Position numbers and translations under genes: made by a program. A stretch of 48,365 nucleotides of DNA from a virus. The notes beneath the pieces are model-generated. The model was given only the letters and a program-made list of their open reading frames with translations. It was not told the DNA's origin and did no database searches. The stretch is taken from IMG/VR virus record IMGVR_UViG_3300036830_000164, positions 1 through 48,365 of that record. The stretch is one strand, 5' to 3'. The first letter of the stretch is position 1; each line of letters starts with the position of its first letter. Of this stretch, positions 1 to 21,609 are shown piece after piece.

Positions 1-59
1 TCGGGCTCCTGAGAACGTTCGGGGACAGCGTGGCCGCCTTCTGCCGGAGCATCTCGTGA
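1..59 (+). CDS. C-terminal end of an unidentified upstream gene (partial)
   Basis: The frame starting at base 3 is open from the window edge to a TGA at 57-59, giving only about 18 residues ending FCRSIS. The stop overlaps the GTG of the next gene by a GTGA junction, the same coupling used throughout the window, which is the main reason to believe it is coding. Too short to assign; an upstream member of the same plus-strand operon is likely. Confidence 0.4.
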   Translation, partial: GLLRTFGDSVAAFCRSIS

Positions 60-544
60 GCCGCCGCAAGCGCTCCAGCGGCCTCGGCGTGCTGTCCGCC
101 GTGGGTGTGGGCACCTACATGGCCCTTCACGTCCACCTGGGCGGCTTCCACCTGGACAGCGTCAAGGCCCCGACCCACGCGGCCCGGGTGGCGGTCCGCT
201 ACGCCGAGGCCAGGATCGGTCTTCCCTACCAGTGGGGCGGCACCGGCCCGGACGGCTTCGATTGCAGCGGCCTCACGAGCATGGCCTGGAAGCACGCCGG
301 GGTCACCATCCCCCGGACCAGCCAGGAGCAGTGGGCCGGCCTGCGTCACGTCAGCAAGCCCGCGCCGGGAGACCTGGTGTTCAGCTACTGGACCGACCCG
401 GCCGACCCGGCGAGCCCCAACCATGTGCAGATCTACGCCGGCCACGGCGACGTCATCGGCGCCGACACCACCGACGTGGAGCGCGTCCCGCTGTCCACCG
501 ACGCAGGCCACATCGTCGGCTACGCCAACCCCACCGCACGCTAG
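56..544 (+). CDS. NlpC/P60 family cell-wall peptidase, membrane-anchored
   Basis: 162 aa. Seen: a hydrophobic N-terminal segment after a basic start (residues about 9-28), then an NlpC/P60 domain with WGGTGPDGFDCSG carrying the nucleophile Cys70, a catalytic His in PNHVQIYAG, and a following polar IGAD segment. Known: this family are papain-like peptidases that cut peptide stems of peptidoglycan. The N-terminus suggests secretion or anchoring outside the membrane. GTG start chosen because it overlaps the upstream stop (GTGA). It sits in one operon with a transglycosylase-like gene and an FtsK gene, so local wall opening for DNA transfer is likely; a phage lysin role is the alternative. Confidence 0.85.
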   Translation: MSRRKRSSGLGVLSAVGVGTYMALHVHLGGFHLDSVKAPTHAARVAVRYAEARIGLPYQWGGTGPDGFDCSGLTSMAWKHAGVTIPRTSQEQWAGLRHVSKPAPGDLVFSYWTDPADPASPNHVQIYAGHGDVIGADTTDVERVPLSTDAGHIVGYANPTAR

Positions 545-553
545 GAGAGTTTC

Positions 554-1414
554 ATGCTGTCCAAGTTGCTGACCATCCCCGCCGCCGCCCTCGCCTCGGC
601 CGCCGTCCTGACGGCTTGCGGAGGAACACCGCCGCCGCACCTTTCGGCACGCGCCCAGGCCATCGCCTACATGCGCTCGCACCCGGTCGCGCCCCGCCCA
701 GGGATGACCACGGCCGTCGTCCTGTCGTCAGACAGCGTGGGGTTCCTGAAGGCCGCGGCGAGGCAGGCGCACTGCCCAGCCACGCTGATGGTGGCCATCA
801 AGGGCAGCGTCGGCAACCTGCCTGGGTGTGGCGCCTGGAGCGCGACCGTGGAGACCGCCGCGGGCACTGTGGCACACCTGGCGTGCGGCAGCATCGCAGC
901 CCGGCGACTGTGTCCGACCGACCTGCTCGCCAACGGCTACATCCCCAGCGACGGCGACTACTTGCGCTTCCGTACGGATGGCCGGATCACCGGCCCGGCC
1001 GAAGTCCAGGTCATCAGGGAGTTCGCCGTGGACATCCTCGGCCCGGATCCGGACAGCGGACCGTGGATCACCACCCGGGCAGCGCCGACCCCGCTCAAGC
1101 TCGCCCTGAGCTACATGCGCCGCCACCCCGTCCCGCACCGGCACGGCATGACCGCAGGGGTAGTCGTCAGCGACTACGCCAGCGGCACCATCTGGTCTGT
1201 CACCTGGACACTGACGATCGCGCTCCCCAGTGGGCCACCGGTCACCGTCCCTTGCGTGAACGGCCAGGTCAAGAGGACCTGCCCGTGGCTGGCCGGCCCT
1301 GACGTGCTAGGCGGTGCGGCCTCGCCCAACCCGGTCGGTGTCTACCTGTACTTCCGCAGCGACGGTGTCATCGCCAAGCACGGCGACACACACGTCATCG
1401 GGCGGGGATGGTAA
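554..1414 (+). CDS. Lipoprotein with an internally duplicated domain
   Basis: 286 aa. Seen: signal peptide with lipobox LTAC, lipidated Cys22, then two related halves. The first begins AYMRSHPV...GMTTAVV (about residue 38) and the second SYMRRHPV...GMTAGVV (about residue 186). Each half ends in a similar YLRFRTDG / YLYFRSDG motif followed by a VI dipeptide. The halves are about 110 residues with several Cys in the first. No family recognised. It lies between two wall-active enzymes, so an extracytoplasmic partner or inhibitor is plausible but unproven. An AGGAGAG site precedes the ATG. Confidence 0.75.
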   Translation: MLSKLLTIPAAALASAAVLTACGGTPPPHLSARAQAIAYMRSHPVAPRPGMTTAVVLSSDSVGFLKAAARQAHCPATLMVAIKGSVGNLPGCGAWSATVETAAGTVAHLACGSIAARRLCPTDLLANGYIPSDGDYLRFRTDGRITGPAEVQVIREFAVDILGPDPDSGPWITTRAAPTPLKLALSYMRRHPVPHRHGMTAGVVVSDYASGTIWSVTWTLTIALPSGPPVTVPCVNGQVKRTCPWLAGPDVLGGAASPNPVGVYLYFRSDGVIAKHGDTHVIGRGW

Positions 1415-1499: not shown

Positions 1500-1949
1500 A
1501 TGCTCGGGAGGCTCGCGCTCGCCGCGCTCGCCGCTGTCGTTGGGGTCGTCGGTGTCTACACCGCCGAAGATCTCATTCACATGCGCGCAGGTGGCAACCC
1601 TGCGGCCAACCGGGTGCTTGCCGACCAGCTGGCCGCCAGCGAGTACGGGTGGACCGGTTCGCAGCGCGGCTGCCTCAACACCCTGTGGCGGGGCGAGTCC
1701 GGGTTCAGCCAGTACGCCGACACCCGCCAGACCGGGCTCGACTCCGCCGGGGCGCAGGTGTTCGCCTACGGCATCCCGCAGGCGCGGCCCGCATCCAAGC
1801 TTCCCGAGGCTGGCCAGCCCGCCAGCCTCGGGGGTCAGTCCGAAGCCTCAGCCCAGGTGCACTGGGGGCTCCGGTACATCAAGCGCACCTATGGAGACCC
1901 GTGCGCCGCCCTGGCGTTCAAACGGGCTCACGGTAACCGGGGCTACTAA
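1500..1949 (+). CDS. Lytic transglycosylase-like protein
   Basis: 149 aa. Seen: N-terminal membrane segment or signal (about residues 4-21), then LWRGESGFSQYA with the likely catalytic Glu66, AYGIPQARPASKL, and a C-terminal WGLRYIKRTYGDPCAALAFK...HGNRGY. This order matches SLT/lysozyme-fold proteins of the aggregation-promoting-factor type. Known: these cleave the glycan strand of peptidoglycan. The frame is open further upstream, but this ATG falls two bases after the preceding small ORF and starts a proper signal, so it was preferred. With the NlpC/P60 gene it gives this operon both peptide- and glycan-cleaving enzymes. Confidence 0.75.
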   Translation: MLGRLALAALAAVVGVVGVYTAEDLIHMRAGGNPAANRVLADQLAASEYGWTGSQRGCLNTLWRGESGFSQYADTRQTGLDSAGAQVFAYGIPQARPASKLPEAGQPASLGGQSEASAQVHWGLRYIKRTYGDPCAALAFKRAHGNRGY

Positions 1950-2161: not shown

Positions 2162-2211
2162 CCACCCACCAACCCAACCCAACCCGCCAACTAGGAAAAG
2201 GAGACAGCCCG

Positions 2212-2490
2212 GTGGCACGCTGGCCAACCCAAGAGCGGATCAAAACGGTTGCGTCCGAGATCCGCGATGCGTTCGCGGCCGGCGACGGCCACCGGGCTGT
2301 CAACACAGCCATTGTCAGCGCGCTGCAGCCCGCCGCGTCGTTCGCGAGGCGCACCCTGCAGCCAGCCCAGCGCCCCAGCGGGTACCCGGTGAAGCCTTCG
2401 GGCCGGGACCTCGCGGCGGCGTTCGATGTGTTCCTCGCAGACGCCCGGCGCCGCGGCGGCGCCGACGGCAGCGGAAGGAGGACGGCATGA
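2212..2490 (+). CDS. Hypothetical helical protein, paralog of the gene at 8886-9221
   Basis: 92 aa from a GTG preceded by AAAAGGAGA. Seen: WP..ER near the N-terminus, then E.RDAFAAGDGHRAVNTAI...LQPAASFARR. The gene at 8886 has the same string of features (WP...R, GDGRRAVNAAL, LQIASSYVRR), so the two are diverged duplicates about 6.7 kb apart. Mostly helical by composition. Function unknown. Overlaps the next ATG by four bases. Confidence 0.65.
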   Translation: MARWPTQERIKTVASEIRDAFAAGDGHRAVNTAIVSALQPAASFARRTLQPAQRPSGYPVKPSGRDLAAAFDVFLADARRRGGADGSGRRTA

Positions 2491-3083
2491 GCATCAACGA
2501 CATCCTGGGCTGGGGCCGCAGCGGTGACGGCGGCAACGGGGAAGACCCGCAGCCGCAGCCCGCCGCGCGGCCGCTGCACAGCGTCCCAGAGCCCCCCGTG
2601 CCCCCGGCTGACCCGGCGGGCCAGCAGGGCGCACCGGTGGGCGTGGTCACCCAGGTCCGCGCCGCGGCCTCCTTCACCCGCACCGCCGCCCGCGCGAACT
2701 TCAAGGCCCGCGTGGAGCAGCACGGCGGCCTCGTGAACTGGTTCTTCCACTACGACCCGCCCTCGGTGGCGCAGCAGCTGGAGTACCTGCACCGCCGCTC
2801 CTGGGTGACACCGGGCCACGAGGGCGGCATGTTCGACCGGGCCGGTGCCCGTTACCAGCGCCGGTTCGGGGTCAGGATCATCGCCCTGGCCGCGCTCGTC
2901 GCCCTGGTCGGTTCCCGGGCCATCGCCGCCGCCACCGTGGGGCTCATCGCATCGGGGCTCACCGTGGTTTTCCTGTGCGCCCTGGCCCCGGGTGACAAGA
3001 CCGTGATCATCGCCGTGGCGCTGGCCCTGTGGGCGGCCGGGCTGGGCTACCTGTTCGCACCGTCCCGCAACAAGGAGGACTGA
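2487..3083 (+). CDS. Membrane protein of the FtsK-associated operon
   Basis: 198 aa. Seen: Pro-rich acidic N-terminal 50 residues, a soluble middle with WFFHYDPPSVAQQLEYLHRRSWV, then three to four hydrophobic segments from about residue 130 (IIALAALVALVG, VGLIASGLTVVFLCAL, VIIAVALALWAAGLGYLF) and a charged tail. Strong GGAAGGAGG site. No named family recognised. It is coupled to the next membrane protein and to FtsK, so it probably belongs to the same envelope complex. Confidence 0.7.
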   Translation: MSINDILGWGRSGDGGNGEDPQPQPAARPLHSVPEPPVPPADPAGQQGAPVGVVTQVRAAASFTRTAARANFKARVEQHGGLVNWFFHYDPPSVAQQLEYLHRRSWVTPGHEGGMFDRAGARYQRRFGVRIIALAALVALVGSRAIAAATVGLIASGLTVVFLCALAPGDKTVIIAVALALWAAGLGYLFAPSRNKED

Positions 3084-3086
3084 CAC

Positions 3087-3827
3087 ATGATCAACGCGGC
3101 ACCCCTGATCGTCGCGGCGCTCGCGGCGGCGCTGTGGGTGAACCTGATGCGCGGGATCGGGCACCAGAAAGACCCCGGCCTGCTCACGCGCGGCCCCGGC
3201 CGCTGGTTCGGCGGCAAGGGCAAGGGCGGCTCCCGCAGCGACCGCCCGAAGGCGGCACGCAGGCTCGCCATCCTGTCCTACCTCATCGGCCTGGGCCTGG
3301 TCGCGGGGATCATCCCGGTGGCCGACGCCCTCGCCGGGTGGACCTCGGGCAGGACCGGCGTGGGCTACCTCGCCGTGCTGGACCTGCTGCTCACCGGCGC
3401 CATCTGGCTGGAGGTGTGGCACCTGCACAACCACCACCCGGCCTGGACCCAGGTGACCTGCTTCATCGCCGGTGCGGTCACGGTGGACACCTACGCGTCC
3501 TGGGAGCGGATGATCCACCAGGGCGGCAAGCTGCTGCCGCAGACTTTCGCGGCGATCAGCCACGAGGCGGCCCGGCAGAAGTCCGGCAACGCCGCCAAAG
3601 CCGCCCTGCACAACCTCCACGGCGTCCACGTCCCCGGGGCGAAGGGGTTCCCGGTGTCGACCGTCCTGGGCTTGCTGGTGATCGGCCTGCTGCTGTTCGT
3701 CGCGGTCGGCGGCCACCGGCTGGTCAGCAAGACCCGCCGGCGGTCGCAGCGCAGAAACTCCGGGCCCGGTGCCGCGCAGCGCCGCCCCGTTTCGGGTTCG
3801 CCCGGCCGTCAGGCACTGGGGGGCTGA
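3087..3827 (+). CDS. Multi-pass membrane protein of the FtsK-associated operon
   Basis: 246 aa. Seen: N-terminal helix (LIVAALAAALWVNLM), a basic Gly-rich loop, three central hydrophobic stretches, a long loop holding WHLHNHHPAW and HEAARQK, a last membrane helix (VLGLLVIGLLLFVAVGG, about 190-206) and a strongly basic tail. Preceded by AAGGAGG. Not recognised as a named family. Its stop lies three bases before the FtsK GTG, pointing to joint action with the translocase. Confidence 0.7.
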   Translation: MINAAPLIVAALAAALWVNLMRGIGHQKDPGLLTRGPGRWFGGKGKGGSRSDRPKAARRLAILSYLIGLGLVAGIIPVADALAGWTSGRTGVGYLAVLDLLLTGAIWLEVWHLHNHHPAWTQVTCFIAGAVTVDTYASWERMIHQGGKLLPQTFAAISHEAARQKSGNAAKAALHNLHGVHVPGAKGFPVSTVLGLLVIGLLLFVAVGGHRLVSKTRRRSQRRNSGPGAAQRRPVSGSPGRQALGG

Positions 3828-3830
3828 CCG

Positions 3831-5987
3831 GTGACGGACACAGTGACCCCGGCGGGTGAGGTGAGGGGTGCGGTGCACCAGTACCGCGCCGTCCTCGCCC
3901 CCCTGGCATGGATGGCCGCCCTCGAGGTGGCGGCGGCCGTGGCCCACCAGATGAGCGCGGCGTACGGGCTGCTTGCCGTGCTCGTGGCCGCCGGGGTCAC
4001 CGGTGCCCGCTACGCGGTCCGCCTGCGCACCAGCGACCCGGAGGACCGCATGTACGCGCTCACGGTGTGGGCCGCAGCGACCGTCTGGCTGATCCTCGCC
4101 GCCGCGTCGTCGCCGTTCGCCGTGCCCCACATCCCGGTGCTGGGCTGGCCGGTGCCGGTGTTCCAGGTTCTGCTGCTCGCCGGCGGCCCGTCGCTGGCTG
4201 TCCGCTGGTGGTTCGTGCACCGGGCACCTGAGCCGCCCGACCACCGGACCCTCGCCGGTGAGGTGCTCACCCCGCCCGCCCCCAGCCACGACGCCGGAAG
4301 CTACGGGCAGGCGGGCACGCCTCAGCCCGGCTGGGTGGCGCCCGCCACCCCCGAGGCCCCGCTTGAGGAGACCATCGTCCACGACGCCGCCCCGAAGCCC
4401 GGCGGGTGGAAGGTGGCCCCCAGCCACGACGCCGGAAGCTACGGGCAGGCGGGCACGCCTCAGCCCGGCTGGGTGGCGCCCGCCGCCCACGACGCCGCCC
4501 CGAAGCCCGGCGGGTGGAAGGTGCCACCGCAGACGCTGCTGACCCGGCCCATCGCGCCGAAGGGCGCGACCCCAGCGAACGCCCGGGTCATGGAGCAGCT
4601 CGCGGCGGTGCTGGAGCAGTTCGAGGTCGACGCCCAGGTCACCGGGTTCACCCGGGGCCCGACCGTCACCCGGTACGAGGTAGAACTCGGCCCGGCGGTG
4701 AAGGTGGAGAAAGTCACAGCCCTGTCGAAGAACATCGCCTACGCGGTCGGGACCGCGGACGTGCGGATCCTCTCGCCGATCGAGGGCATGTCCGCCATCG
4801 GCATCGAGATCCCCAACCCCGACCGGGAGACCGTCACTCTCGCCAGCGTCCTGCCCGCCCTGGCCAATGACCCCCACCCGCTCGCGGTGGCGCTCGGCCG
4901 CGACGTCGGCGGCGAGGTTGTCACAGCGAACCTCGCGAAGCTCCCTCACGTGTGCATCGCAGGGTCGACCGGTGCCGGCAAGTCGGTGTGCGTCTGCGGG
5001 CTGATCACCTCCATCCTGCTGCGGGCGACGCCGGATGACGTGCGCATGATCCTCATCGACCCCAAGCGGGTCGAACTCGCAGGCTTCGCCGGCATCCCGC
5101 ACCTGATCACGCCGATCATCACCAGCCCGAAGAAGGCCGCTGAGGCGCTCGGCTGGGTCGTCGGGGAGATGGACCGCCGCTACGACGACCTCGCTGCTGC
5201 CGGGTTCCGGCACATCGACGACTTCAACAAGGCGGTGCGCGCAGGCAAGCTCACCCCGCCGCCGGGCAGCGAGCGCGTCTTCCTGCCCTACCCGTACCTG
5301 CTGGTGATCGTGGACGAGCTGGCGGACCTGATGATGGTGGCGCCGCGCGACGTGGAAGACGCCATCGTCCGCATCACCCAGCTCGCCCGGGCGGCAGGCA
5401 TCCACCTGGTGCTCGCCACCCAGCGGCCCAGTGTGGACGTCGTGACGGGGCTGATCAAAGCCAACGTGCCCGCCCGGCTGGCGTTCGCCACCTCCAGCCT
5501 CACCGACTCCCGGGTCATCCTCGACGAGCCCGGCGCGGAGAAGCTCACCGGCAGCGGGGACGCCTTGTGGAAGCAGCCAGACGCCCGCCGCCCCAAGCGC
5601 CTGCAAGCGCCGTTCATCACCGAGCAGGAGATGGCCGATGTCGTGGCGCGGGTCCGCGAGCAGGCCGCGGACCTGCCCCAGCCGGAGATGGTCGACATCA
5701 CCGGCGGTGACTCCAGCACCGGTGAGGCCCTGGAGGTCGGCGACGACCTGGAACTGCTGGTCGCGGCGGCCGAGATCGTGGTCTCCACCCAGTTCGGCTC
5801 CACGTCGATGCTCCAGCGGAAGATGCGGGTCGGTTTCGCCAAGGCGGGCCGGCTCATGGACCTGCTGGAGTCCCGGGGCGTAGTCGGCCCCCAGGAAGGC
5901 TCCAAGGCACGTGACGTCCTGGTCGGCCCGGACGGCAAAGACGAAGCAATCGCCGCCCTGCGCGGTACCAACACAGGGAGTGAGTGA
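3831..5987 (+). CDS. FtsK/SpoIIIE-family DNA translocase with gamma domain
   Basis: 718 aa. Seen: about four N-terminal membrane helices (residues 20-125), a low-complexity linker with duplicated segments, an alpha domain ([26 protein letters not shown]), a RecA-like motor with Walker A GSTGAGKS at 378-385 and Walker [12 protein letters not shown] with Asp495/Glu496, [11 protein letters not shown], and a C-terminal gamma winged helix (about 640-710, [20 protein letters not shown]). Known: such proteins pump double-stranded DNA, guided by gamma-domain recognition of short oriented sequences. At 718 aa it is close in size to ordinary FtsK/SpoIIIE proteins, and the gamma domain is unlike TraB-type plasmid translocases. 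Inferred role: transfer, partition or dimer resolution of the element. Confidence 0.93.
4278..4523 (+). repeat. Direct repeats encoding the FtsK linker
   Basis: A 69-bp unit at 4278-4346 is repeated exactly at 4416-4484, and a 36-bp unit at 4380-4415 is repeated exactly at 4488-4523. The encoded peptides are [20 protein letters not shown] and [12 protein letters not shown], both duplicated. Perfect identity suggests a recent in-frame duplication, followed by loss of about 30 bp between the units in the second copy. Confidence 0.95.
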
Positions 5988-5990
5988 GCC

Positions 5991-6197
5991 ATGCCGCTCG
6001 CAGAAGTAACCGCCCACGCCGCCGCGGCGTCCCCGGTGGCACCCGTGCTCGGGCTAGGGCTCGTGATCGTCTGGGCCGCGATGCTGGTGACCCGGTGGCG
6101 CGGGCAGGACACCCCCGGCCTGTGGCTGGCCGTTATCGCCGTCACCATCGCCAGCGGGGCCCTGGCCCTGCACGGCGGGATCGCGGGTGTGTCATAA
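5991..6197 (+). CDS. Small two-helix membrane protein
   Basis: 68 aa with two hydrophobic segments (about 16-33 and 45-64) separated by RWRGQDTPG. A GGGAGTGAG site and a three-base gap couple it to FtsK. Function unknown; likely a small partner in the FtsK membrane complex. Oddly, the same reading frame stays open after its TAA and encodes a zinc ribbon (next entry). Confidence 0.65.
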   Translation: MPLAEVTAHAAAASPVAPVLGLGLVIVWAAMLVTRWRGQDTPGLWLAVIAVTIASGALALHGGIAGVS

Positions 6198-6344
6198 GCC
6201 AGTGCCCGAGCACCCTCGAGGCGGCAGGCCCGGGGTCCGCGTGGACCCTGCCCATTCTGCGGCGGCCACAACTACAAGGACATCAGTTCGGACTTTGGCG
6301 CTGCCTACGAGTGCCTGTCCTGCGGAGAGACGGAGACATTGTGA
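6198..6344 (+). pseudogene. Zinc-ribbon coding segment without a start codon
   Basis: Seen: 48 sense codons ending TGA at 6342-6344, encoding GPCPFCGGHNYKD...AAYECLSCGETETL, a well-formed CPxCG...CxxCG zinc ribbon. No ATG, GTG, TTG or CTG occurs in the frame. It lies directly behind, and in frame with, the TAA of the 68-aa membrane protein; a GTG at 6187 opens the +1 neighbouring frame and would need one frameshift near 6230-6250 to enter it. The stop overlaps the next ATG (TGATG). It could be a frameshifted gene, a recoded extension of the previous gene, or a sequencing error. Confidence 0.5.
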
Positions 6345-6769
6345 TGGGAATGTTCAGCAAGCGCGCCACAACCCCGGCGGTGCCCGCCACGGGCTGGCAG
6401 CCGGACGGCAGCGGCGTCACGACCGGCGGGCCGCCTGTCGAGGGTCAGCTAGGTGCGGCATACAGGGTCCGCTTCATGAATCCGGCTGTGCCCGGCTACC
6501 TGATCACACTCACCTACTTCGCCGAGGAGGACGGCTGCCAGTACGCCGTTGGGCGTGTATGCCAGTTCCTCATCTGCTCCGACCCGTCAGACCCGGACGG
6601 TACGCGCATCTGGGCCGGCCCCGGCGACGGCTATGACCAGGTGCTCGGCCCGTTCCCGAGCGGGTCCTATGCCGGGCTAGCGGCGCTCGACAACGCCGAG
6701 TGGTGCCTTGGGCGCGCCGTGGACGTCGGCACCTGGGCCTCTGACGGTTTCGCCGGGTACGGGGGCTGA
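6344..6769 (+). CDS. MGxF-tag array protein 1
   Basis: 141 aa. Seen: N-terminal MGMFSKR, then GWQPDGSGV, YRVRFMNPAVPGYLITLTY and a C-terminal GTWASDGFAGYGG. The central block matches array protein 6 (8452) clearly: GWQ.D.SGV, FR.MNPA.PG, IT.TY. No known domain recognised. The basic tag MG(hydrophobic)F(K/R)R is shared by six genes in a row and could act as a membrane-contact or sorting tag; this is inference. Overlaps the zinc-ribbon stop by one base. Confidence 0.65.
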   Translation: MGMFSKRATTPAVPATGWQPDGSGVTTGGPPVEGQLGAAYRVRFMNPAVPGYLITLTYFAEEDGCQYAVGRVCQFLICSDPSDPDGTRIWAGPGDGYDQVLGPFPSGSYAGLAALDNAEWCLGRAVDVGTWASDGFAGYGG

Positions 6770-6771
6770 CG

Positions 6772-7203
6772 GTGGGCATCTTCGGAAAGCGCCGCGCCCA
6801 GCGGGACGAGTTGAGCACCTGGCAGCCAGCGGTCGGCTACGGCGTCCAGAACGACAGCGCCAGGGAGATCGCGGGAGACGCGGCGGTCGCGCAGACCGCC
6901 TACCGGCTCCACTTCGCGCTCAGGTCCGCACCGTCCGCAACGCTGGTCATCTGGACGTACGCGGTGACCGCCACCCCCGAGGCCGGCCCGGGCCCGTACG
7001 CGGTCGGCTACCGGGGAGAGTGCTGGATCGAGGAGTTCCTGGTGTCCGCCTGGAACGAGGAGGACTGGGAGGGCTACTCCAACCCCGCCGACGCTGACGC
7101 CGCGGCGCTCGCCATCGCTGTCCAACTTTGCACCCAGCGCCGGGGCCAGCCCGGGGAGATCGACAGCCTCGGGTTCTTCGAGTGGGACGGGGTGCCGTTC
7201 TGA
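6772..7203 (+). CDS. MGxF-tag array protein 2
   Basis: 143 aa from GTG. Seen: MGIFGKRRAQ, TWQPAVGYGV, YRLHFALRSAPSATLVIWTY, YAVGYRGECWI, a helical NPADADAAALAIAVQL region and a C-terminal FFEWDGVPF. The order beta-rich middle, helix, WDG end is the same as in array proteins 3, 6 and 7. Acidic overall. Stop shares one base with the next ATG (TGATG). Function unknown. Confidence 0.65.
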   Translation: MGIFGKRRAQRDELSTWQPAVGYGVQNDSAREIAGDAAVAQTAYRLHFALRSAPSATLVIWTYAVTATPEAGPGPYAVGYRGECWIEEFLVSAWNEEDWEGYSNPADADAAALAIAVQLCTQRRGQPGEIDSLGFFEWDGVPF

Positions 7204-7655
7204 TGGGCATTTTCCGCAGGCGCCGGACCCAGTCTGCGGGGTGGAGGCCGCTGCGGCGCACCAGCATCCCGCTCACCGGCACCGACGCGGGCATGGGCGA
7301 TGGCGACCAGGTGTTCGCGGTCGCCCACATGGTGGCGTTCGGGATGCAGCACCCTGACGGCGCAGTGATCACCGTCTGTGCGTACGCGTCCTACGCGTCC
7401 CATTTCACTGAGCCCGACCGCTACGGCGTGAGGCTGCGCTACCACTACACGTCGGAGGCGCACCCCGGCTGGGTTTACACCGGCCGGGAGCCCGGCCCGT
7501 GGGACACCACCGCCTACGCGGGCAGGGCCGATGACCAGGCCCGCGAACTGGCGGACCTGCTCGCATCCGGAACCGAGGACGTGTCCGCGTGGCTGCCGAG
7601 GATCTTCGGCTGGGACGGCGAGTGGTTCGCGGTTGCAGAAGCCAGGGAGGTCTGA
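7203..7655 (+). CDS. MGxF-tag array protein 3
   Basis: 150 aa; start set by the TGATG junction. Seen: MGIFRRRRTQ, VAFGMQHPDGAVITVCAYA, DRYGVRLRYHYTSE, a helical ADDQARELADLLASG segment and C-terminal FGWDGEWFAV. Shares the YGV and WDG motifs with neighbours but is otherwise diverged. Function unknown. Confidence 0.65.
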   Translation: MGIFRRRRTQSAGWRPLRRTSIPLTGTDAGMGDGDQVFAVAHMVAFGMQHPDGAVITVCAYASYASHFTEPDRYGVRLRYHYTSEAHPGWVYTGREPGPWDTTAYAGRADDQARELADLLASGTEDVSAWLPRIFGWDGEWFAVAEAREV

Positions 7656-7658
7656 GCG

Positions 7659-8006
7659 ATGGGACTGTTTAGCGGGCCCAGGATGTCGGACGCCGAGTAC
7701 GCCACGTCTGTGCCAGGAGCCACTCATGTGCTGGCGTGGCTGCCGGCCGGCCTCACCGAAGACGGGAGCGGCTGGGAACTGCTCACGGCCACCGACTTTA
7801 GCGTCAGCTGGGCCGGCCACTGGGCGGCGGTCGTCTTCGACGCCCCAGAGGACGCCGACCCGGGCTACCTGGCCGCGAGCGTGGCGGAGGAGCTCGCGCA
7901 GCCGGTGACGCTCACCGCAGACACGCGGGATATCAAGCTCAGCCCGCGCCGTCTGCGCTGGTACCGCCAGCCCATCTACTGGGTGATCCCGGCAGGGGGG
8001 TGCTGA
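7659..8006 (+). CDS. MGxF-tag array protein 4
   Basis: 115 aa after a GGGAGG site. Seen: MGLFSGPRM tag-like start, LTATDFSVSWAGHWAAVVFDAPEDADPGYLAASVAEELAQPVTL and a C-terminal RWYRQPIYWVIPAGGC. It keeps the N-terminal tag but lacks the WDG end, so it may be a different domain behind the same leader. Function unknown. Confidence 0.6.
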   Translation: MGLFSGPRMSDAEYATSVPGATHVLAWLPAGLTEDGSGWELLTATDFSVSWAGHWAAVVFDAPEDADPGYLAASVAEELAQPVTLTADTRDIKLSPRRLRWYRQPIYWVIPAGGC

Positions 8007-8008
8007 CA

Positions 8009-8449
8009 ATGGGACTTTTCGGCAAGCGCCAGCCAGCGGCACCCGCCCACCTTCCAGCCGACTGCACTGCATGCGGCCTGCCCCTCGCCGGGGCTCACGA
8101 CGGCTGGGAACACGCGATCTGCGAACGGCTGCGCGCGGCGGAGGACGCCGCCGCCGAGGTCCACGACAACGGGCCACTAGAAGACGTCGAGCCCAAGCTC
8201 CGCAGCAAGGACCTGTGCCCGTGGCAGATCCGGGCGCGTGGATGGGATGGCGGCGGCATCTACTGCGGCCGAGACATCACCGACACCGGCGGGGACGACC
8301 CGGACCTGTTCTGCCTTGAGCACCAGGCCAAGTTCTACGGCGACGAAGAAGGCGCGGCGCAGGAGCGAAACGAGCACATGTGGAACCTGCTCGAACAGGC
8401 GGGCGCGCTCCAATTCAACACAGCCGGCCAGCCGGAGTGGAGGAACTGA
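8009..8449 (+). CDS. MGxF-tag array protein 5, zinc-binding type
   Basis: 146 aa. Seen: MGLFGKRQ tag, then CTACG (Cys19, Cys22) with HAICER at 36-40, which looks like a treble-clef-type metal site, and a second set LCPWQIR...GIYCGRD...LFCLEHQAKFY. No WDG motif. So the array combines one N-terminal tag with at least two unrelated body types. ATG preferred over an in-frame GTG three codons earlier because a GGCAGGGGGG site is correctly spaced. Function unknown. Confidence 0.65.
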   Translation: MGLFGKRQPAAPAHLPADCTACGLPLAGAHDGWEHAICERLRAAEDAAAEVHDNGPLEDVEPKLRSKDLCPWQIRARGWDGGGIYCGRDITDTGGDDPDLFCLEHQAKFYGDEEGAAQERNEHMWNLLEQAGALQFNTAGQPEWRN

Positions 8450-8451
8450 CG

Positions 8452-8883
8452 ATGGGACTGTTCAGCAAGCGCGGCGCCCAGCCCGCAGCGACAGACGGCT
8501 GGCAGACGGACAGCAGTGGCGTGCTCGGCCACCTCGACAACGCCAGCCTGGGCGATGCCCACTCCGGGCAGTCGTACAGCTTCCGCCTGATGAACCCCGC
8601 AATGCCGGGCCGGTTCATCACCATCACCTACTACCCGGTGCAGTACGAGTCATGGCAGAGCCCCGAGTGGGGTGTCGAGCGGAAGGTCGAATGGTGGATC
8701 AACGACCCGTCGTTCACCGACAGCATCCGGCAGTGGGAGGACTCCGAGACCGACTTGGTGAACCCGACCGCGCTGGGCACCCGCGAGGAGGCCGAGCGGA
8801 TGGCCGTCCAGTTCGCTAACGAGGACGCCGCCGACCCCGCCGAATACGGCACCTGGGACGGCCAGCCGGAAGGGGGGAACTGA
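8452..8883 (+). CDS. MGxF-tag array protein 6
   Basis: 143 aa after a GTGGAGGA site. Seen: MGLFSKRGAQ, GWQTDSSGV, YSFRLMNPAMPGRFITITYY, WGVERKVEWWI, TREEAERMAVQFANEDAAD and C-terminal GTWDGQPEGGN. Closest relative is array protein 1. The two share the first 10 bases of coding sequence except one, and diverge later. Acidic, probably soluble. Function unknown. Confidence 0.65.
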   Translation: MGLFSKRGAQPAATDGWQTDSSGVLGHLDNASLGDAHSGQSYSFRLMNPAMPGRFITITYYPVQYESWQSPEWGVERKVEWWINDPSFTDSIRQWEDSETDLVNPTALGTREEAERMAVQFANEDAADPAEYGTWDGQPEGGN

Positions 8884-8885
8884 CG

Positions 8886-9221
8886 ATGCCAGCCAAGTGG
8901 CCAGAGGAGGACCGCGTGGCTGAAGAGGTCGACGCCGTCCGCAGGCTGCTCGAACGAGGGGACGGGAGGCGGGCTGTTAACGCCGCTCTCCACACCTTGC
9001 AGATCGCCAGTTCCTACGTGCGCAGGTGCCGGCCGGACGACGGCTCCCTGTGGGACGCCGAGGTCGCGGGGGCCGCGCTGGCGCTGGCGATCCGCCTGCA
9101 CCGGTACCAGCCACGGGCGCTGGCACAAGTACGCGGCAGGGTTGGCCGGGAGCACCTCCTGGCCACCCTCGACGCCGCACTGGCAGACGTGGGCAACTAC
9201 ACACAGGGGAGATCGCGATGA
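8886..9221 (+). CDS. Hypothetical helical protein, paralog of 2212-2490
   Basis: 111 aa. Seen: KWPEEDRVAEEV, ERGDGRRAVNAALHTLQIAS, SYVRRCRP, then a longer C-terminal helical part (HLLATLDAALADVG). The shared block with the 2212 gene spans about 45 residues. The two copies bracket the FtsK gene and most of the array, suggesting duplication inside the operon. Stop overlaps the next ATG (ATGA). Confidence 0.65.
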   Translation: MPAKWPEEDRVAEEVDAVRRLLERGDGRRAVNAALHTLQIASSYVRRCRPDDGSLWDAEVAGAALALAIRLHRYQPRALAQVRGRVGREHLLATLDAALADVGNYTQGRSR

Positions 9222-9784
9222 ACGGCATGACTGGCAGTGCGGGCGGGTGGCTGGTATCCGGCCCCGGCCCGGAAGTGATCGCGGCTGCGGTGCTGGGCGA
9301 CAGTGCAGGGGAGCAGGCGTATGCGGTGACCTTCACCCGGGCCGGCAAGCCCGGTGCTTGCATAGCCGCCTGGTTCCACCCTTGGCTCCGCCGTGAGGAT
9401 GACACGTACGGTGTCGGCGCCTGCTACCAGTACCGCGCCGGGGGGCCCGGGCGCTGGGGTTACAGCGGCCACGACACCGACCCGGCCGACGAGTTGTTCA
9501 CCACCCTGCAGCAGGCCGACGACGCGGCCCGCGATTGGGCGCGGCTGGCGGTCGAGGTGCCCGGCCTGCTGCGGGACTGGAGCTTCCTCGCCTGGGATGG
9601 TGAGCCCCCTGTGAACAGGCCCCTCCCCTCCCCCGGGGGAGCGGGGAGAGGGGCAGAAGTGGCCCCCAATGCATCGATCCGCGCGCATCCGCGCGCGTGC
9701 GCGCGAGGGAAGCGGTTTGTCAAGCCACAGTCCCGGCTGTTCCGCGAGCCTGGCACCACTAAGGAAGGAGCTGGCCCAAGATGA
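9218..9784 (+). CDS. Array-related protein 7 with C-terminal extension
   Basis: 188 aa. Lacks the tag (starts MNGMTGSAGG) but has AYAVTFTRAGKPG, DDTYGVGACYQYR, a helical QQADDAARDWARLAV and WSFLAWDGEPP, the array fold pattern. In relatives the protein ends about 10 residues after WDG; here the frame runs about 58 more residues through a GC hairpin and a CG-alternating tract to a stop that overlaps the next ATG (ATGA). The extension may be non-native reading of regulatory DNA, or a real addition. Confidence 0.6.
   Translation: MNGMTGSAGGWLVSGPGPEVIAAAVLGDSAGEQAYAVTFTRAGKPGACIAAWFHPWLRREDDTYGVGACYQYRAGGPGRWGYSGHDTDPADELFTTLQQADDAARDWARLAVEVPGLLRDWSFLAWDGEPPVNRPLPSPGGAGRGAEVAPNASIRAHPRACARGKRFVKPQSRLFREPGTTKEGAGPR
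9619..9654. terminator. GC-rich hairpin inside the end of the array-7 frame
   Basis: Perfect 12-bp palindrome TCCCCCGGGGGA at 9629-9640 flanked by GCCCCTCCCC and GGGG-AG-AGGGGC arms, giving a long imperfect stem over 36 bases. No T run follows. It could be a weak terminator or processing site separating the array from the following membrane-protein genes. Confidence 0.4.
9677..9705. repeat. Tandem 10-bp repeat and alternating CG tract
   Basis: ATCCGCGCGC occurs twice head to tail (9677-9686, 9687-9696), followed by GTGCGCGCGA. Twenty-odd bases of nearly pure alternating purine-pyrimidine, a form prone to Z-DNA. Lies in the dubious extension of the 9218 gene. Confidence 0.6.
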
Positions 9785-10992
9785 ACGTCATGCCCCCCGA
9801 CCTGAAAACCCTGGCAACTCTCGGCGCCCGTGACCAGGTGCTCGCCGGGATCGTCCTGGTGGCGCTCGCAGCCCTGCTCACCGTCGCGGGCCGTTTCACC
9901 TGGAAGGCGCTGCGCAAGTACCCGGCGGACGCCCTGCTCACCTTCCTGACTGCGTCTCTGACCAGCGGCGTTGTCGCTACAGGCATGTGGCACTTCGCCG
10001 GGGAGGTGCTGCACTTCTCCGGCCTGGAGCGGTGGCTGCTGTTCGGCATCCTTGAGCTCACCGTTCTGACCTGCGCCGTCCGTGCCCGGCGGAACATCGC
10101 CGAGACCGGCGGTGCCGGCCCCGAAGGGGTCGCCATCTGGGTCGTGAGCGTGATGTCCGGGGCGTTCTCCGCCACGGCCACCACCTCGGCCCCGGAGGCG
10201 CTGTTCCGGCTGGCGCTGCCACTGCTCGCAACATGGCTGTGGGAGCGGTCGCTGCTCCCGGCCCGCCGGGAATCTGGCAAGGAGGGCCGCTGGCACGCTC
10301 TCGCGCAGCGTGCCCTGGCCCGCCTCGGGCTGGGCAGCCTGGAGCAGCACACCGACGCCGAGGCCGTTGCCCAGTGGCGCGTCGCCCAGCTTGCCCGCGC
10401 CGTGGTCCGCGCCAAGCGTGCCGGGCGGGTCATGCGGAAGTGGCGCCGGTACCGGGTGGATGTCCTGACGGTCGCCGCGAACGAGCACGCCGAACTGGCC
10501 ACCCGCAAGGACCGCCGGGACCTGCTCCTGTCGTACATCGGAACCCTGCTCGGGACAGGCACGCTCATTGATCTGGAGCCGCCCGCGCCGTGGGATCCGG
10601 CAGCCGTGAAGCATGCTTGGGAGCAGTCCCAGGACATGTCTGAGGGCATGCCCGAGGAGGAGCCCGAAGCAAGCTCGGAGGATGCTCCGGAGCATGACGC
10701 AGGCAACCCGCCAGACATGCCCGAGGAGGAGCCCGAAGCAAGCCCACCCGACCGGCGCAAGGTTGCCCTGAAACTGCCTGCAAGCAAGTCCCGGAGCATG
10801 ACCGCAACCCAGCTCGCAAGGCACGTCGGGGCCATGCTCGACGCCTACGGGCACGTGTCCCAGCCACGCATCAAGGGTGATCTGCACGTCGGCACCGAGA
10901 AGGCAGCCGAGGCGCTGCGGATCGCTCTTGCTGAGCGCGGCGTCGAGGGCGGAACCGTGCCCCCCCTTCACGTGGTCGGGAGCCAGGGATGA
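9781..10992 (+). CDS. Four-helix membrane protein with C-terminal HTH-like domain (Spd/DUF2637-like layout)
   Basis: 403 aa; AAGGAAGGAG site. Seen: hydrophobic segments at about 21-37, 51-66, 80-97 and 119-134, then a basic cytosolic part (residues 150-235), an acidic linker with repeated MPEEEPEAS, and a C-terminal helical domain (TATQLARHVGAMLDAYG...KAAEALRIALAERG) resembling a winged helix. Known: actinomycete conjugative elements carry spread-type membrane proteins with N-terminal helices and a C-terminal HTH. The match here is by layout only. Likely membrane partner of the translocase. Confidence 0.55.
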   Translation: MNVMPPDLKTLATLGARDQVLAGIVLVALAALLTVAGRFTWKALRKYPADALLTFLTASLTSGVVATGMWHFAGEVLHFSGLERWLLFGILELTVLTCAVRARRNIAETGGAGPEGVAIWVVSVMSGAFSATATTSAPEALFRLALPLLATWLWERSLLPARRESGKEGRWHALAQRALARLGLGSLEQHTDAEAVAQWRVAQLARAVVRAKRAGRVMRKWRRYRVDVLTVAANEHAELATRKDRRDLLLSYIGTLLGTGTLIDLEPPAPWDPAAVKHAWEQSQDMSEGMPEEEPEASSEDAPEHDAGNPPDMPEEEPEASPPDRRKVALKLPASKSRSMTATQLARHVGAMLDAYGHVSQPRIKGDLHVGTEKAAEALRIALAERGVEGGTVPPLHVVGSQG

Positions 10993-11663
10993 AGGGCTAC
11001 ACCCACGCACTGAGCGGCCTCGCCGCCGGAGCGACAGCAGGCGAGTACGTCACACACCTGCCGGTGGCAAGCATCGCCACCTTCGCAGTCCTCGCCGCCG
11101 GGTTCGCCACCGTGCCGGATCTCGACCAGTGCCATTCGACCGCGGCCCGCTCGCTGGGGTTCCTGTCGCACGGCTTCGCCTGGGCTGTGCAGAAGGTCTC
11201 GGGCGGCCACCGGCACGGCACCCACAGCGCTCTCGGCGTCGCAGTCTTCACCGCGCTCGCCTGGGCCGCCTGCCACTACCGGGCCACCATCCCCGGCAGG
11301 GCCGGCCTGGCGTTTACCGTCGCGCTCGCCGCCGCCTCGGCGCTGCGTGCGCTTCACCTCGGCGGCCACCACGGAGACCTGCTCGGAATCGCTGCCGGCG
11401 CCGCGGTGGCGTGGCAGGGGTGGGGGCTGGCCCTGATCCCGGTGGCGTGCGCGATCGGCTGCGCGACGCATCTGATCGGGGACGCCTGCACCAACGAGGG
11501 CGTCCCGCTGCTGTGGCCGCTGACCGGCGCCCACATCCGCCTGCTGCCCGAGCCTTTCGCCTTCACCACCTCCACACGCCCTGAGCGGTGGGTGGTCGCC
11601 CCGGGCCTGGTGGCAGCGCTCGGCCTGCTGGCCTGGCACGCGGTGACCCTGCCCATCACCTAG
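10989..11663 (+). CDS. YdjM/DUF457-like membrane-bound metal-dependent hydrolase
   Basis: 224 aa. Seen: N-terminal THALSGLAAGA with His6, a VPDLDQCHS motif (Asp44, Asp46, His49), GGHRHGTHS (His74/76/79), several membrane helices, HLGGHHGD and HLIGDACT. The spaced His/Asp sites next to helices are typical of the YdjM family, thought to be integral membrane metal-dependent hydrolases; the substrate is unknown. ATGA overlap with the previous gene. Last gene of the plus-strand block. Confidence 0.75.
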   Translation: MKGYTHALSGLAAGATAGEYVTHLPVASIATFAVLAAGFATVPDLDQCHSTAARSLGFLSHGFAWAVQKVSGGHRHGTHSALGVAVFTALAWAACHYRATIPGRAGLAFTVALAAASALRALHLGGHHGDLLGIAAGAAVAWQGWGLALIPVACAIGCATHLIGDACTNEGVPLLWPLTGAHIRLLPEPFAFTTSTRPERWVVAPGLVAALGLLAWHAVTLPIT

Positions 11664-11719: not shown

Positions 11720-12373
11720 CTACTTTGCGAGCACCTCACGCGGCCGGCTCCACCTGGCGGGCCCGACCACCCCGGCGGCCTCCAGCCGTTCCATCAGTTC
11801 ACGTGCCCGCAGCGGCCCGACGTGCATTTCGGTCTCCAGCATCTTCTGTGTGGCCGTCCCCGCCTCGGTCACGACCTCGCGTGCCCGGCTAACGAGCGCG
11901 TCCCAGTCCACCGGGGGCTGCCGCGACCACGCGCGGGGCATGGTGCGGCCCGGCTTGCTGCCACCCTGGGGGAGCCCGGCGGCCTGCCGTTTGGCGATGC
12001 CCTCCCGGATGCGGCGCCGCTGAATGTCCCCGCCAGCCCCGGCGGCCCACTGGCCGAGGGCGGCGGCCAGCCGGCGGCCCTGCGGCCCGGCGGCCGGGAA
12101 CCACGGCTCGGCCAGCGACCGCACCCGGCACCCCAGCGCGGCCAGCTGCCCGGCGAACGCGAGCGCGTCAGCGGCGGACACCCGGGTCAGCGACGCCAGC
12201 GACGGCACGACCACGGTGAGTTCCTGCCCGCGTGCCCGGGTGAGCAGCGTTTCCCGGCTGGCCTTGAACGTGGCCGGGGTGGGGGTGTACTCGATGGCTG
12301 GCTGCCCGGCCTCGGCGCGGAGCCGTCCGAGCTCGGCGGTCCCTTCCGGGCACCAGATGGCATAGGTGGTCAT
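11720..12373 (-). CDS. Degenerate serine-recombinase-like protein with C-terminal FtsK-gamma-like domain
   Basis: 217 aa from MTTYAIW; an AAAGG site precedes it and it leaves a 16-base gap to the upstream gene. Seen: a resolvase-like half with TVVVPSLASLTRVS, a GCRVRSLAEPW strand and IQRRRIREGIAKRQAAGLPQ as in the resolvase linker helix. But the nucleophile position (YARVS in resolvases) reads YAIWC, and the DR of the LDRLxR motif is AS. The C-terminus (QKMLETEMHVGPLRARELME then RLEAAGVVGP...PREVL, about 163-215) matches FtsK gamma winged helices, including the one encoded at 3831-5987. Inferred: DNA-binding, probably non-catalytic. Confidence 0.65.
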   Translation of the reverse strand: MTTYAIWCPEGTAELGRLRAEAGQPAIEYTPTPATFKASRETLLTRARGQELTVVVPSLASLTRVSAADALAFAGQLAALGCRVRSLAEPWFPAAGPQGRRLAAALGQWAAGAGGDIQRRRIREGIAKRQAAGLPQGGSKPGRTMPRAWSRQPPVDWDALVSRAREVVTEAGTATQKMLETEMHVGPLRARELMERLEAAGVVGPARWSRPREVLAK

Positions 12374-12389
12374 GGCTGGTCGCTGCCTT

Positions 12390-13727
12390 TCAGGCATTGG
12401 AGACGGCATAGGACACTTCCGGCCCGGCGGGGCCGCCCGGGTGGGTGACTGCGGTCAGGGCACCGGGGCAGGCCGCGCTCGCCCGCCACACCAGCGGCTG
12501 CCCGGCGCGGTCTTCGCAGGCACCTTTGGCGGCTTCGAGGCTCGGCCACGGCCCGAGGCTGTGAGCATCCGGCTCGCCCCCGGGCACCTGGGCGGCCCAC
12601 GCGGCGGCGAACCTGGTGACCGGCAGCGGTGCCCGTTCGGCGGCGAGCTTGTCCCGCCACGCGCCGCGCTCGGCTTCCATCGACGCCCGGGTCACCCACT
12701 CAACCCGCGGCCGCCCGCCGGGCCCGGGGGTGATGGTGAACCGCAGCCCGTCCGCGCTGCCGGTCAGGTCGTTGCCCTTCTCCATCGTCACCACCCGGTA
12801 CGCGGCGTTGACCGGGTCGACGGTCACCTCGTAGATGACCCGCAGCGCGTCCCGCAGCCCCTCCGACCCGGCGAGCTTCCCGGCCTTGTTGGGGTGGCCG
12901 ATCAGCAGCACGGCCGGGCTGTCGGTGTCGGCCAGGTCTTGCACCGGCTCAACGAACCGGCGGGCACCGGCGACGGTCTGGATCGAACCCCACCCGACCA
13001 CGGACGTCACGGGGTCGATGATGACCAGCTGCACGTCGCGCGGGTCGGTTTCCCGGTCCCGCAGGTATTTGATGAACGCCCGCAGCAGCGAAATGTGCCC
13101 CTCGTCCCGCGCGGACGCGGACAGCTTGAACCGGGTGCCGTCGCCGAGCTTGGTCATGTTCCACACCCGGGCGGGGTCGCCGCCGGCGGCTTCGATCCGT
13201 GCCCGAAGCTGCTCGGGGGTGTCCTCGGGCCAGATGCCCACGACGTCGCCGCCGCGGCGGGTCACCTCGGCTATCAGCGAGTGCGACAGCCGGCCTTTGC
13301 CGATCGCGCCCCTGCCGTACAGCAGTGCGGCGTCGCCGCGGGGCAGGATCAGCGGGATGGCGCCGAGGTCGAGCGGGATCATGGGCCGTTCGGGTACCCG
13401 GTCCATCGACGGGATGCCGCCGAAGTCGTCGGGCCGCAGCCCGGCTGCGGGTGCGCCGGGCGGGGTGCCTCCGGCGAGGGTGCCGGGCCAGCCTGCCGAG
13501 ATCAGCGCCGAGAGTGCAGCCTCAGCGGCCACGGGTGCGGCCGGCTCAGCTGGAACGGTCACCGGTGCCGCCTCGGCCGCAGGCGCGGGCTCCGCCGCTG
13601 GCGTGCCCACGGGCCCGCACGCGGGGCATGTCACCTCCCCGGGCAGGTCGTCAAGGCATTGCCCGCAGTACCATTCGCCGTCGCCGTCATGCACCGGCCC
13701 AGCCGGCGCGAGTGTGGTGGTGGTCAT
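12390..13727 (-). CDS. RepA-like AAA ATPase (AAA_25 type) with zinc ribbon
   Basis: 445 aa from MTTTTLAPAG, set by a GGGAGGG site. Seen: N-terminal zinc ribbon (YCGQC 20-24, TCPACG 33-38), an Ala/Pro linker, then a RecA-fold ATPase with a P-loop LLYGRGAIGKGRLS (136-148; Gly where Ser/Thr is usual), IWPEDT, Walker B VQLVIIDPVTSV (233-243), LLIGHPNKAG and MEKGND. This layout matches RepA/DnaB-like replicative helicases of plasmids and actinophages. Likely initiator or helicase for the element. The C-terminal 100 residues are a separate domain without a clear match. Confidence 0.8.
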   Translation of the reverse strand: MTTTTLAPAGPVHDGDGEWYCGQCLDDLPGEVTCPACGPVGTPAAEPAPAAEAAPVTVPAEPAAPVAAEAALSALISAGWPGTLAGGTPPGAPAAGLRPDDFGGIPSMDRVPERPMIPLDLGAIPLILPRGDAALLYGRGAIGKGRLSHSLIAEVTRRGGDVVGIWPEDTPEQLRARIEAAGGDPARVWNMTKLGDGTRFKLSASARDEGHISLLRAFIKYLRDRETDPRDVQLVIIDPVTSVVGWGSIQTVAGARRFVEPVQDLADTDSPAVLLIGHPNKAGKLAGSEGLRDALRVIYEVTVDPVNAAYRVVTMEKGNDLTGSADGLRFTITPGPGGRPRVEWVTRASMEAERGAWRDKLAAERAPLPVTRFAAAWAAQVPGGEPDAHSLGPWPSLEAAKGACEDRAGQPLVWRASAACPGALTAVTHPGGPAGPEVSYAVSNA

Positions 13728-20046: not shown

Positions 20047-21609
20047 TCAGCCTGCCTGCCGTGCCTCGGCCTGGATCTCAGCCCATGCGGCCTCATGCGC
20101 CTTGACGAACTTGACCGCGGCGCGCTTGCCGTCGAACGCGGCAGTGTGGCCGGACGGGTGCCAGGTCGCGATGACGTGCCGCGTGCCACCCGCGACGCTG
20201 GCGGTAAGGCTGAACGTTGCCCCAGGCCACGGGCCGGCCTTGCCAGGCTTGAGTGTGACGTCCCGCCCGTGCCTGTCCTTGAGACCCGGGATGATCGCAG
20301 GCTGGCCGCTGGCAGGCTCGGGCGTGGTCTGGGGTGTGGCCGGGCGGACGTGGGCAACCGGCTCGGCGGGCTCGGGCGTGGCGGCCGGCTCTGGCTTGGG
20401 CTTGGACTTGATCGCCGCCTGCCAGATGCGTATGGGCATCACCAGGCCCCGGAAACCGTCGCGCGGCGCCCCATCGGGCGTGACCAGCATCGCGCCGCGG
20501 GCCTTAGACCACGAGAGGCGAACCGTACCTTTCAGGCCAGCGAGCACACCGGCCAGATACAGCGGGTTGTAGGCCACCGTGTGACCGATCACCCGGTAAC
20601 CGGGCCCGCTCTGGGCAACATCGCCCATGTCCAGCCGGCACGGCACGGCCGCCGACGATGCCCGCCTGCCGTCACGCCTGGCGGTAACCGTCACCCGGCC
20701 GGAACGGAACTCCAGCGTCACAGCCTCACCTTTCCCCGCAGCGGCGCCGGCGCGCTTGACAGCTTCCGCCAGGGCACCAGCGTCGGCCGTGGCTGTGACA
20801 GCGGCAGTCTTCGGCAGGAGTTTGGCGTACGAGGGGAACGTGCCGGCATCGCGGGTCCGGATGATCAGGTCCCGTACGCCGTCGCTCAGGCCGGCCATAG
20901 CGTCATCGCCGCCGAACCCCGGCTTGTGGCCGGCGGGCACGGGCGCCAGGTGAACCGACACACGCTCGCCCTTGGCGGCCAGCTTGGCGAACACGGCGAG
21001 GATCTTAGCCGGGATCGCAGCCTTGCGGCCCGCCTCGGTCACGGTTGCGGCCGCGGTCTCCACACCGAGCCTGTAGCGGTCGGTGGCGGCGAACGTGATA
21101 CCGGCATCGCCGAAGTCCAGCAGGACGGCCGTAATGGCCGGCAGCGTGTCATCTGTGGAAGCGCACACACCCACCCGGCCGACCGCGCCGGCCAGAACCG
21201 AACCGTCCACCGAGGCGACCTCAGCGGGCATCGCCGGCAACTGCGGGTAGTCACCGGCCGGCAAGAGCTCCACCGACGCTGACACCCCATCGCATTCAAG
21301 CGTGAGCGTGTCCCCATCGGACATGGCCGTCACCTGCGCTGCCTTGCCCCCGGGCAGCCCCTTAACCGCGGTTGCCAGTTCCTTGCCGCGTGCCAGAACC
21401 GTTCCGGCGGCCGTCACGTCCGCGGGCACGCGCGCACGGGCCGTCATGTCGTAATCGAACCCCGAGACTGTGACCGTGCCTAGCGTGGCCTGCAGGTGAA
21501 CCCCTGCCAGCACCGGAACCGCCGGCCTGGTGGGCAGTCCCTTGACCGCCCACGCGAGACCGGCCGCCAGCTCGCCCTTGCCTGCTGTGAACATCACTTC
21601 GCTTGCCAT
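20047..21609 (-). CDS. dnaN-like: DNA polymerase III beta-clamp homolog with C-terminal extension
   Basis: 520 aa; ACGGGAGGG site. Seen: three repeated clamp domains, with VSGFDYDMTARARVPADV (domain 1), ATDRYRLG at 176-183 (the ATDxxRL hallmark, domain 2) and GFRGLVMPIR ending domain 3 near residue 394, where bacterial clamps stop. About 125 further residues form a Pro-rich linker and a compact domain (GPWPGATFSLTASV...RHVIATWHPSGHTAAFDG). Known: the clamp tethers polymerases and other factors to DNA. Here the clamp may recruit host polymerase to the element. The added domain is unusual and unassigned. Confidence 0.85.
   Translation of the reverse strand: MASEVMFTAGKGELAAGLAWAVKGLPTRPAVPVLAGVHLQATLGTVTVSGFDYDMTARARVPADVTAAGTVLARGKELATAVKGLPGGKAAQVTAMSDGDTLTLECDGVSASVELLPAGDYPQLPAMPAEVASVDGSVLAGAVGRVGVCASTDDTLPAITAVLLDFGDAGITFAATDRYRLGVETAAATVTEAGRKAAIPAKILAVFAKLAAKGERVSVHLAPVPAGHKPGFGGDDAMAGLSDGVRDLIIRTRDAGTFPSYAKLLPKTAAVTATADAGALAEAVKRAGAAAGKGEAVTLEFRSGRVTVTARRDGRRASSAAVPCRLDMGDVAQSGPGYRVIGHTVAYNPLYLAGVLAGLKGTVRLSWSKARGAMLVTPDGAPRDGFRGLVMPIRIWQAAIKSKPKPEPAATPEPAEPVAHVRPATPQTTPEPASGQPAIIPGLKDRHGRDVTLKPGKAGPWPGATFSLTASVAGGTRHVIATWHPSGHTAAFDGKRAAVKFVKAHEAAWAEIQAEARQAG

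Follow-up and report, generated by a model that had tools for sequence, protein, structure and literature searches.

A tandem array of small proteins with a shared N-terminal leader downstream of ftsK in an actinobacterial-type phage

The IMG/VR virus record IMGVR_UViG_3300036830_000164 (48,365 bp, G+C 70.5%), analysed here over its whole length and referred to as the window, is, judging from the genes for terminase, portal, head protease and major head protein at 27–36 kb, part of an actinobacterial-type tailed phage. Portal relatives with 51–59% identity occur in G007, G011, G017 and G019, which hence form one phage group with the window. The left 11.7 kb of the window consists of consecutive plus-strand genes with intergenic gaps of −4 to 29 bp, the exceptions being gaps of 85 bp and 146 bp, the latter containing the remnant of a zinc-ribbon gene. 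In this cassette, the gene for an FtsK DNA translocase is followed by an array of small genes (A to H, Table 1) that reveals a protein family not listed before, together with an N-terminal tag that can be separated from the protein bodies, both tied to phage FtsK genes.

The original prediction had singled out six consecutive genes (A to F, 6344–8883) whose products begin with MG[MIL]F followed by basic residues, and their starts and frames are as it described, with a weak basic part in D. The WDG ends it reported at 6772, 7203, 8452 and 9218 are likewise borne out by the sequence. Its view of the array as one leader joined to exchanged bodies stands in part: several unrelated bodies are present, with those of D and E distinct from the rest, but five (A, B, C, F, and H) make up one diverged family, the WDG family, and for these genes an exchange of bodies does not hold. 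With the first nine residues removed, the five are homologous in a shuffle-controlled, all-against-all local alignment (z-scores of 17.1 for A–F, 9.7 for C–H, 7.5 for B–H, 5.4 for B–F, and 4.5 for F–H), and profiles built from 15 and from 18 members unite them in the same manner. The genes initially named do belong to the array, but the untagged gene G, which lies inside it, had been left out. Since the array genes are 2–4 bp apart or overlap, their arrangement resembles that of a translationally coupled operon. Throughout, genes were called by a simple codon-position method and starts were picked by frame and leader. The product of H runs past WDG, through a palindrome and into the start at 9781, and its relatives stop soon after WDG; the extension may stem from a frame change in a C run.

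The array bodies gave no significant match in Pfam, PHROGs or PADLOC, nor, for C and E, in NCBIfam, in keeping with the earlier impression that they belong to no known family. In the AlphaFold2 model of body C (mean pLDDT 86, pTM 0.81), a beta-meander is combined with a helix, and a fold search with it returned no significant match in the PDB or among viral structures (BFVD); the corresponding search with body D found no PDB match. Neither protein searches of INPHARED phages and of PLSDB plasmids with array members nor pattern scans of GTDB genome contigs based on two family alignments recovered any relatives, and no stretches resembling transmembrane (TM) segments were seen in the array proteins. 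A PDB sequence match with E=1.1 and a match of C to AAC(6') (16 bits against a cut-off of 270) were discarded as chance.

Across 22 copies, the leader follows the consensus M-G-[LI]-F-[S/G/T]-[K/R]-R-R, with Gly2 and Phe4 invariant, Leu, Ile or Met at residue 3, Lys or Arg at residue 6 in 20 copies, Arg7 in 16 and Arg8 in 15, and conservation fading from residue 9. The codons used interchange between CTG and ATC at residue 3 and between AAG and AGG or CGN at residue 6, indicating conservation of the leader as an amino-acid sequence. Codon 2 is GGA in 13 of the 22 copies, a preference that suggests an additional start-context effect. In AlphaFold2 models the leader is disordered, with pLDDT below 50 over much of it (residues 5–9 in C, residues 1–7 in D), and shows no amphipathic N-terminal helix of the Noc type, although short membrane-induced helices can escape such models.

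Several bodies are found both with and without the leader. A leaderless homologue of the E body, with 53% identity, occurs in L012, and for the body of the L012 gene at 3666 there is one with 46% identity in the equivalent slot of G019. Leaderless homologues of D occur in G019, L011 and L023, one of those in L023 starting with MSFLRDRQQRR, and the orthologue of H in L014 carries the leader that H lacks. A further L012 body, at 4584, shows weak homology (26%) to a G019 gene. The existence of leaderless homologues for four body types (7659, 8009, 9218, and one L012 gene) hence identifies the leader as a separable tag that comes and goes independently of the bodies and looks like a reusable address label.

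The distribution of leader and family was followed in 62 loci obtained by scanning viral contigs for FtsK, gene starts being counted over 986 predicted genes from 38 FtsK-bearing loci and whole-record scans covering 28 records (~2 Mb); these records are mainly metagenomic fragments, and the leader statistics include related loci. MG[LIM]F starts were found in 14 of the 986 genes, all in the slot directly after FtsK (hypergeometric P ~1e-25, a value inflated by the relatedness of the loci). A degenerate leader pattern had 14 matches in the whole records, 13 of them in the post-FtsK slot and the last at the start of a 20-codon frame, and the WDG-family profile had no match outside that slot in the same records. 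The adjacency to FtsK noted in the original prediction is seen in the window and, as a post-FtsK slot, in several diverged records: L014, L008, L012, L025, L023, L018 and L002 all carry WDG-family members immediately after FtsK, the leader being present in the slot of the first five, degenerate (MSPFRRNR) in the member from L018 and missing from that of L002. L012 and L014 hold further leader-bearing bodies, some with Cys-rich, zinc-like motifs. The prediction had also held that homologues far from FtsK and without the leader would speak against it; leaderless homologues do exist, and two of them, in L023, are encoded upstream of FtsK, but none is more than ~5 kb away from FtsK, and the WDG-family members are all confined to the post-FtsK slot. 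The MGxF array was found in none of ten actinobacterial plasmid loci (six of them obtained via FtsK), and the WDG family in none of three further records added by a portal-based extension of the phage set.

Where present, the FtsK N-terminus of the relatives is 25–33% identical to that of the window, and, among the loci typed, FtsK proteins with a second N-terminal type are accompanied by neither the WDG family nor the leader. The leader also groups on the FtsK tree, needing two changes where shuffles need about five. Both observations may reflect coupling to the membrane part of FtsK, and simple co-inheritance would suit them too.

Table 1. Features of the left part of the window (L, locus handle of a relative).
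Feature	Coordinates	Strand	Remarks
NlpC/P60 peptidoglycan peptidase	56..544	+	Pfam PF00877, E=6e-19; homologues upstream of FtsK in L014, L008, L023
Putative lipoprotein	554..1414	+	Signal peptide ending in Cys-containing AAVLTACGG stretch; hydrophobic N-terminus
Membrane-anchored aggregation-promoting-factor C-terminal domain	1500..1949	+	NCBIfam NF052397, 53.7 bits (cut-off 40)
Small soluble helical protein	2209..2490	+	Paralogue of 8886..9221 (profile match)
3-TM protein	2487..3083	+	Kept upstream of FtsK in relatives
4-TM protein	3087..3827	+	Kept upstream of FtsK in relatives
FtsK/SpoIIIE DNA translocase	3831..5987	+	TM N-terminus; Pfam PF17854 (alpha), PF01580 (motor), PF09397 (gamma)
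Small 2-TM protein	5991..6197	+	Positional counterpart of L014 12034–12501
Zinc-ribbon leader protein remnant	6198..6344	+	Complete in L014 12501–12887 (E=4e-24)
Array gene A	6344..6769	+	Leader MGMFSKR; WDG-family body; ends GTWASDGF (related to WDG)
Array gene B	6772..7203	+	Leader MGIFGKRR, GTG start; WDG-family body
Array gene C	7203..7655	+	Leader MGIFRRRR; WDG-family body
Array gene D	7659..8006	+	Leader MGLFSGPR, basic part weak; second body type, leaderless homologues in L094, L023, L011
Array gene E	8009..8449	+	Leader MGLFGKR; Cys/His-rich (zinc-type) body
Array gene F	8452..8883	+	Leader MGLFSKR; WDG-family body
Gene G, untagged, helical	8886..9221	+	Inside array; paralogue upstream of FtsK near 2209–2490
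Array gene H	9218..9784	+	No leader; WDG-family body with C-terminal extension past WDG
Boundary stretch: C-rich palindrome, then alternating purine-pyrimidine tract	9611..9780		Between array and DUF2637-slot gene
Membrane protein, possible C-terminal helix-turn-helix	9781..10992	+	Slot of DUF2637 protein in L008
YdjM-like membrane protein	10989..11663	+	Pfam PF04307

The translocase encoded ahead of the array is of the FtsK/SpoIIIE type, with a TM N-terminus, alpha and gamma domains and a motor with intact Walker A (GSTGAGKS) and Walker B (LLVIVDE) motifs. About a dozen records share the order small soluble gene, two TM-protein genes, FtsK. The soluble members of the window's cassette are the array products and the proteins of the 8886 type, the other products being mostly membrane-bound or exported and including two wall hydrolases. 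One of the latter, the product of 1500..1949, has a hydrophobic stretch at its N-terminus and is a putative transglycosylase-like enzyme, and the neighbouring putative lipoprotein had no match in Pfam and NCBIfam searches. The zinc-ribbon remnant continues in frame after the stop of the preceding 2-TM gene, without a start codon and without the leader. Homologues of the 9781..10992 protein are found on actinobacterial plasmids; FtsK and DUF2637 genes co-occur on plasmid pSROS01, and on a Thermobispora plasmid the 9781 homologue comes after the gene for a P-loop protein. This plasmid (NZ_CP039125.1, L068), circular and 145 kb in size, encodes a large P-loop protein, the 9781 relative and phage head/tail-like genes, and is possibly a phage-plasmid. 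In three FtsK-bearing actinobacterial plasmids (L089, L090, and L093), a gene annotated as a Pycsar-effector family protein lies beside or near FtsK. Elsewhere in the window, a minus-strand gene at 11720–12409 encodes an FtsK gamma domain preceded by a resolvase-like N-terminal domain (with a Pfam score just below the cut-off); the catalytic serine that such domains usually carry close to the N-terminus could not be made out, and the protein may share DNA sites with the phage FtsK. The minus-strand gene at 20047–21609 encodes a DNA polymerase sliding clamp (phrog_947) and also matches, more weakly, RusA-like resolvases.

The boundary stretch that closes the array has counterparts in L014 (14885–15078), L008 (14100–14355), L025 (12502–12616), L002 (13336–13454) and L013 (12513–12701), the C-rich palindrome preceding the purine-pyrimidine tract in some records. 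The boundary tract is the strongest purine-pyrimidine tract of its locus in six of nine records (tied in the window; P ~4e-11 if the loci are taken as independent), and L004, L007, L019 and L021 have comparable tracts close to the cassette. The element is a candidate for a DNA site used by FtsK or in transfer, for a terminator or for a promoter. In the comparison with TraB/Spd modules, where DNA passes between hyphae by way of a clt site, it was the only candidate DNA element seen.

Gene order, family relationships, conservation and separability of the leader, and linkage to FtsK are shown here. A tag common to the soluble array members, in a cassette whose other products are mostly bound to the membrane or exported, leads to a model in which the array encodes soluble accessory proteins tethered by the leader to a membrane-bound, TraB/Spd-like FtsK complex, a reading to which we assign a probability of roughly 40%, and in which tethering, complex formation and DNA transfer or positioning are all inferred. 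The phage would possess a membrane-anchored DNA-translocation cassette built around FtsK, and the array would supply its soluble accessory proteins. The eight-residue leader, with two hydrophobic and about three basic residues followed by a flexible linker, would serve as a short address tag keeping a variety of small proteins on the inner side of the membrane or on a platform formed by FtsK and the membrane proteins; targeting to a membrane or complex had already been suggested in the original prediction. Single tags would bind weakly, and the avidity of many tagged proteins together with the hexameric motor would hold them in place. Wall hydrolases, TM proteins, FtsK, tagged proteins and the DUF2637-type protein would then act as one unit that moves or positions the genome, in its phage or plasmid form, at the envelope or through it, much as actinomycete TraB/Spd modules do. 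Several observations weigh against this model. In contrast to the N-terminus of Noc, the leader contains just two hydrophobic residues and is not predicted to form a helix, and the array proteins have no TM segment, whereas known Spd proteins insert in the membrane. The phage FtsK scores 70.3 bits against the TraB equivalog NF041214, for which the cut-off is 800. Some slot proteins lack the leader, so that the slot evidently works without it, and in the relatives G011, G017 and G019 the array and the portal gene are only 7–9 kb apart, which suits a late or virion role as well.

That proximity is also among the points favouring the main rival explanation, in which the leader is a virion-packaging tag in the manner of T4 internal proteins and the array products are loaded into the head, injected with the DNA and shield it from a diversity of host defences, the linkage to FtsK being merely one of neighbourhood or co-timing. 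The fast divergence of the bodies, the turnover of genes and the match to a head maturation protease in the phage fit such a role, but an acidic cleavage-like site was not seen after the leader, some members lack the leader altogether, the operon partners are FtsK and membrane proteins instead of head genes, and the presence of WDG as one conserved family in eight records is atypical for a free defence-cassette slot, so that we regard a packaging function as unlikely. A second rival sees in the array a host-takeover or counter-defence accessory set, with the leader directing proteins to a host membrane or to a host target and FtsK being no partner at all. The lack of known folds, the Cys-rich bodies, and the gain and loss of genes among relatives agree with this proposal, and the lack of a match to PADLOC defence families is still compatible with counter-defence; the strict post-FtsK location in diverged phages, the absence of the WDG family elsewhere in those records and the clustering of the leader on the FtsK tree nevertheless make it rather improbable.

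Two other explanations fare worse. The shared starts could be an element of the mRNA or DNA, such as a translation-initiation context for closely coupled genes or a recombination or gene-conversion site, instead of a protein tag, as the overlap of several starts with the preceding stop (TGATGGG) and the favoured GGA at codon 2 might indicate. However, the codons for Leu, Ile or Met at residue 3 and for Lys or Arg at residue 6 switch, synonymous sites vary and Phe4 stays the same in all 22 copies, a pattern of selection on the amino acids, and leaderless genes in the slot are coupled in the same way, which renders this explanation very unlikely. Lastly, the resemblance of FtsK to EccC and EssC at the motor level raises the notion that an FtsK-like ATPase exports the tagged proteins in the manner of type VII secretion. 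Type VII secretion signals are C-terminal and the leader is N-terminal, the alpha/motor/gamma architecture is that of a DNA translocase, and the EccC and EssC scores (100 and 107 bits) fall far short of their cut-offs (509 and 778), making export by this route highly improbable.

Should the leader indeed be an address label, it would represent a compact means of recruiting varied proteins to a membrane DNA motor, and the function of phage FtsK would become testable; should it be a packaging tag, the internal-protein strategy of T4 would extend to actinobacterial phages. A broader and doubtful extension of the tethering model is that an actinobacterial phage clade carries a conjugation-like, envelope-spanning DNA-translocation apparatus on which interchangeable soluble proteins with new folds dock via a common eight-residue tag, which, if true, would amount to a modular tag-and-dock system in a phage.

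Among known systems, one close parallel is offered by the TraB/Spd modules of Streptomyces (pIJ101, pSVH1), in which the gene for an FtsK-like dsDNA translocase likewise adjoins small, highly diverse genes on an actinomycete-type element. The spd genes are diverse, often form units with traB and are required for intramycelial spread (PMC4170104; PMC12857230). The FtsK described here differs in having a gamma domain and in not being TraB by the equivalog cut-off, its array proteins are soluble and share a common leader, and the element that carries them is equipped with genes for phage packaging and the head. Bacillus subtilis Noc likewise has a conserved stretch with Phe and basic residues at its very N-terminus, ahead of a spacer that varies, and uses it as a weak anchor to the membrane that depends on nucleoprotein assembly (PMC4331003), but the leader is shorter, has two hydrophobic residues and no predicted helix, and is common to several unrelated proteins. 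The T4 internal proteins with their capsid-targeting sequence (PMC3012670) provide the precedent for a packaging tag and for one short N-terminal leader on diverse or unrelated phage proteins, from which the array departs in the lack of an acidic cleavage-like site after the leader and in its operon with FtsK and membrane proteins. Phage-encoded FtsK motors are also known from the mycobacteriophages Thibault, Courthouse and Wanda, which are 45–51% identical to the window's over the motor; the array family and the leader, however, were not found in the examined FtsK loci of their group (L027–L032 and L038).

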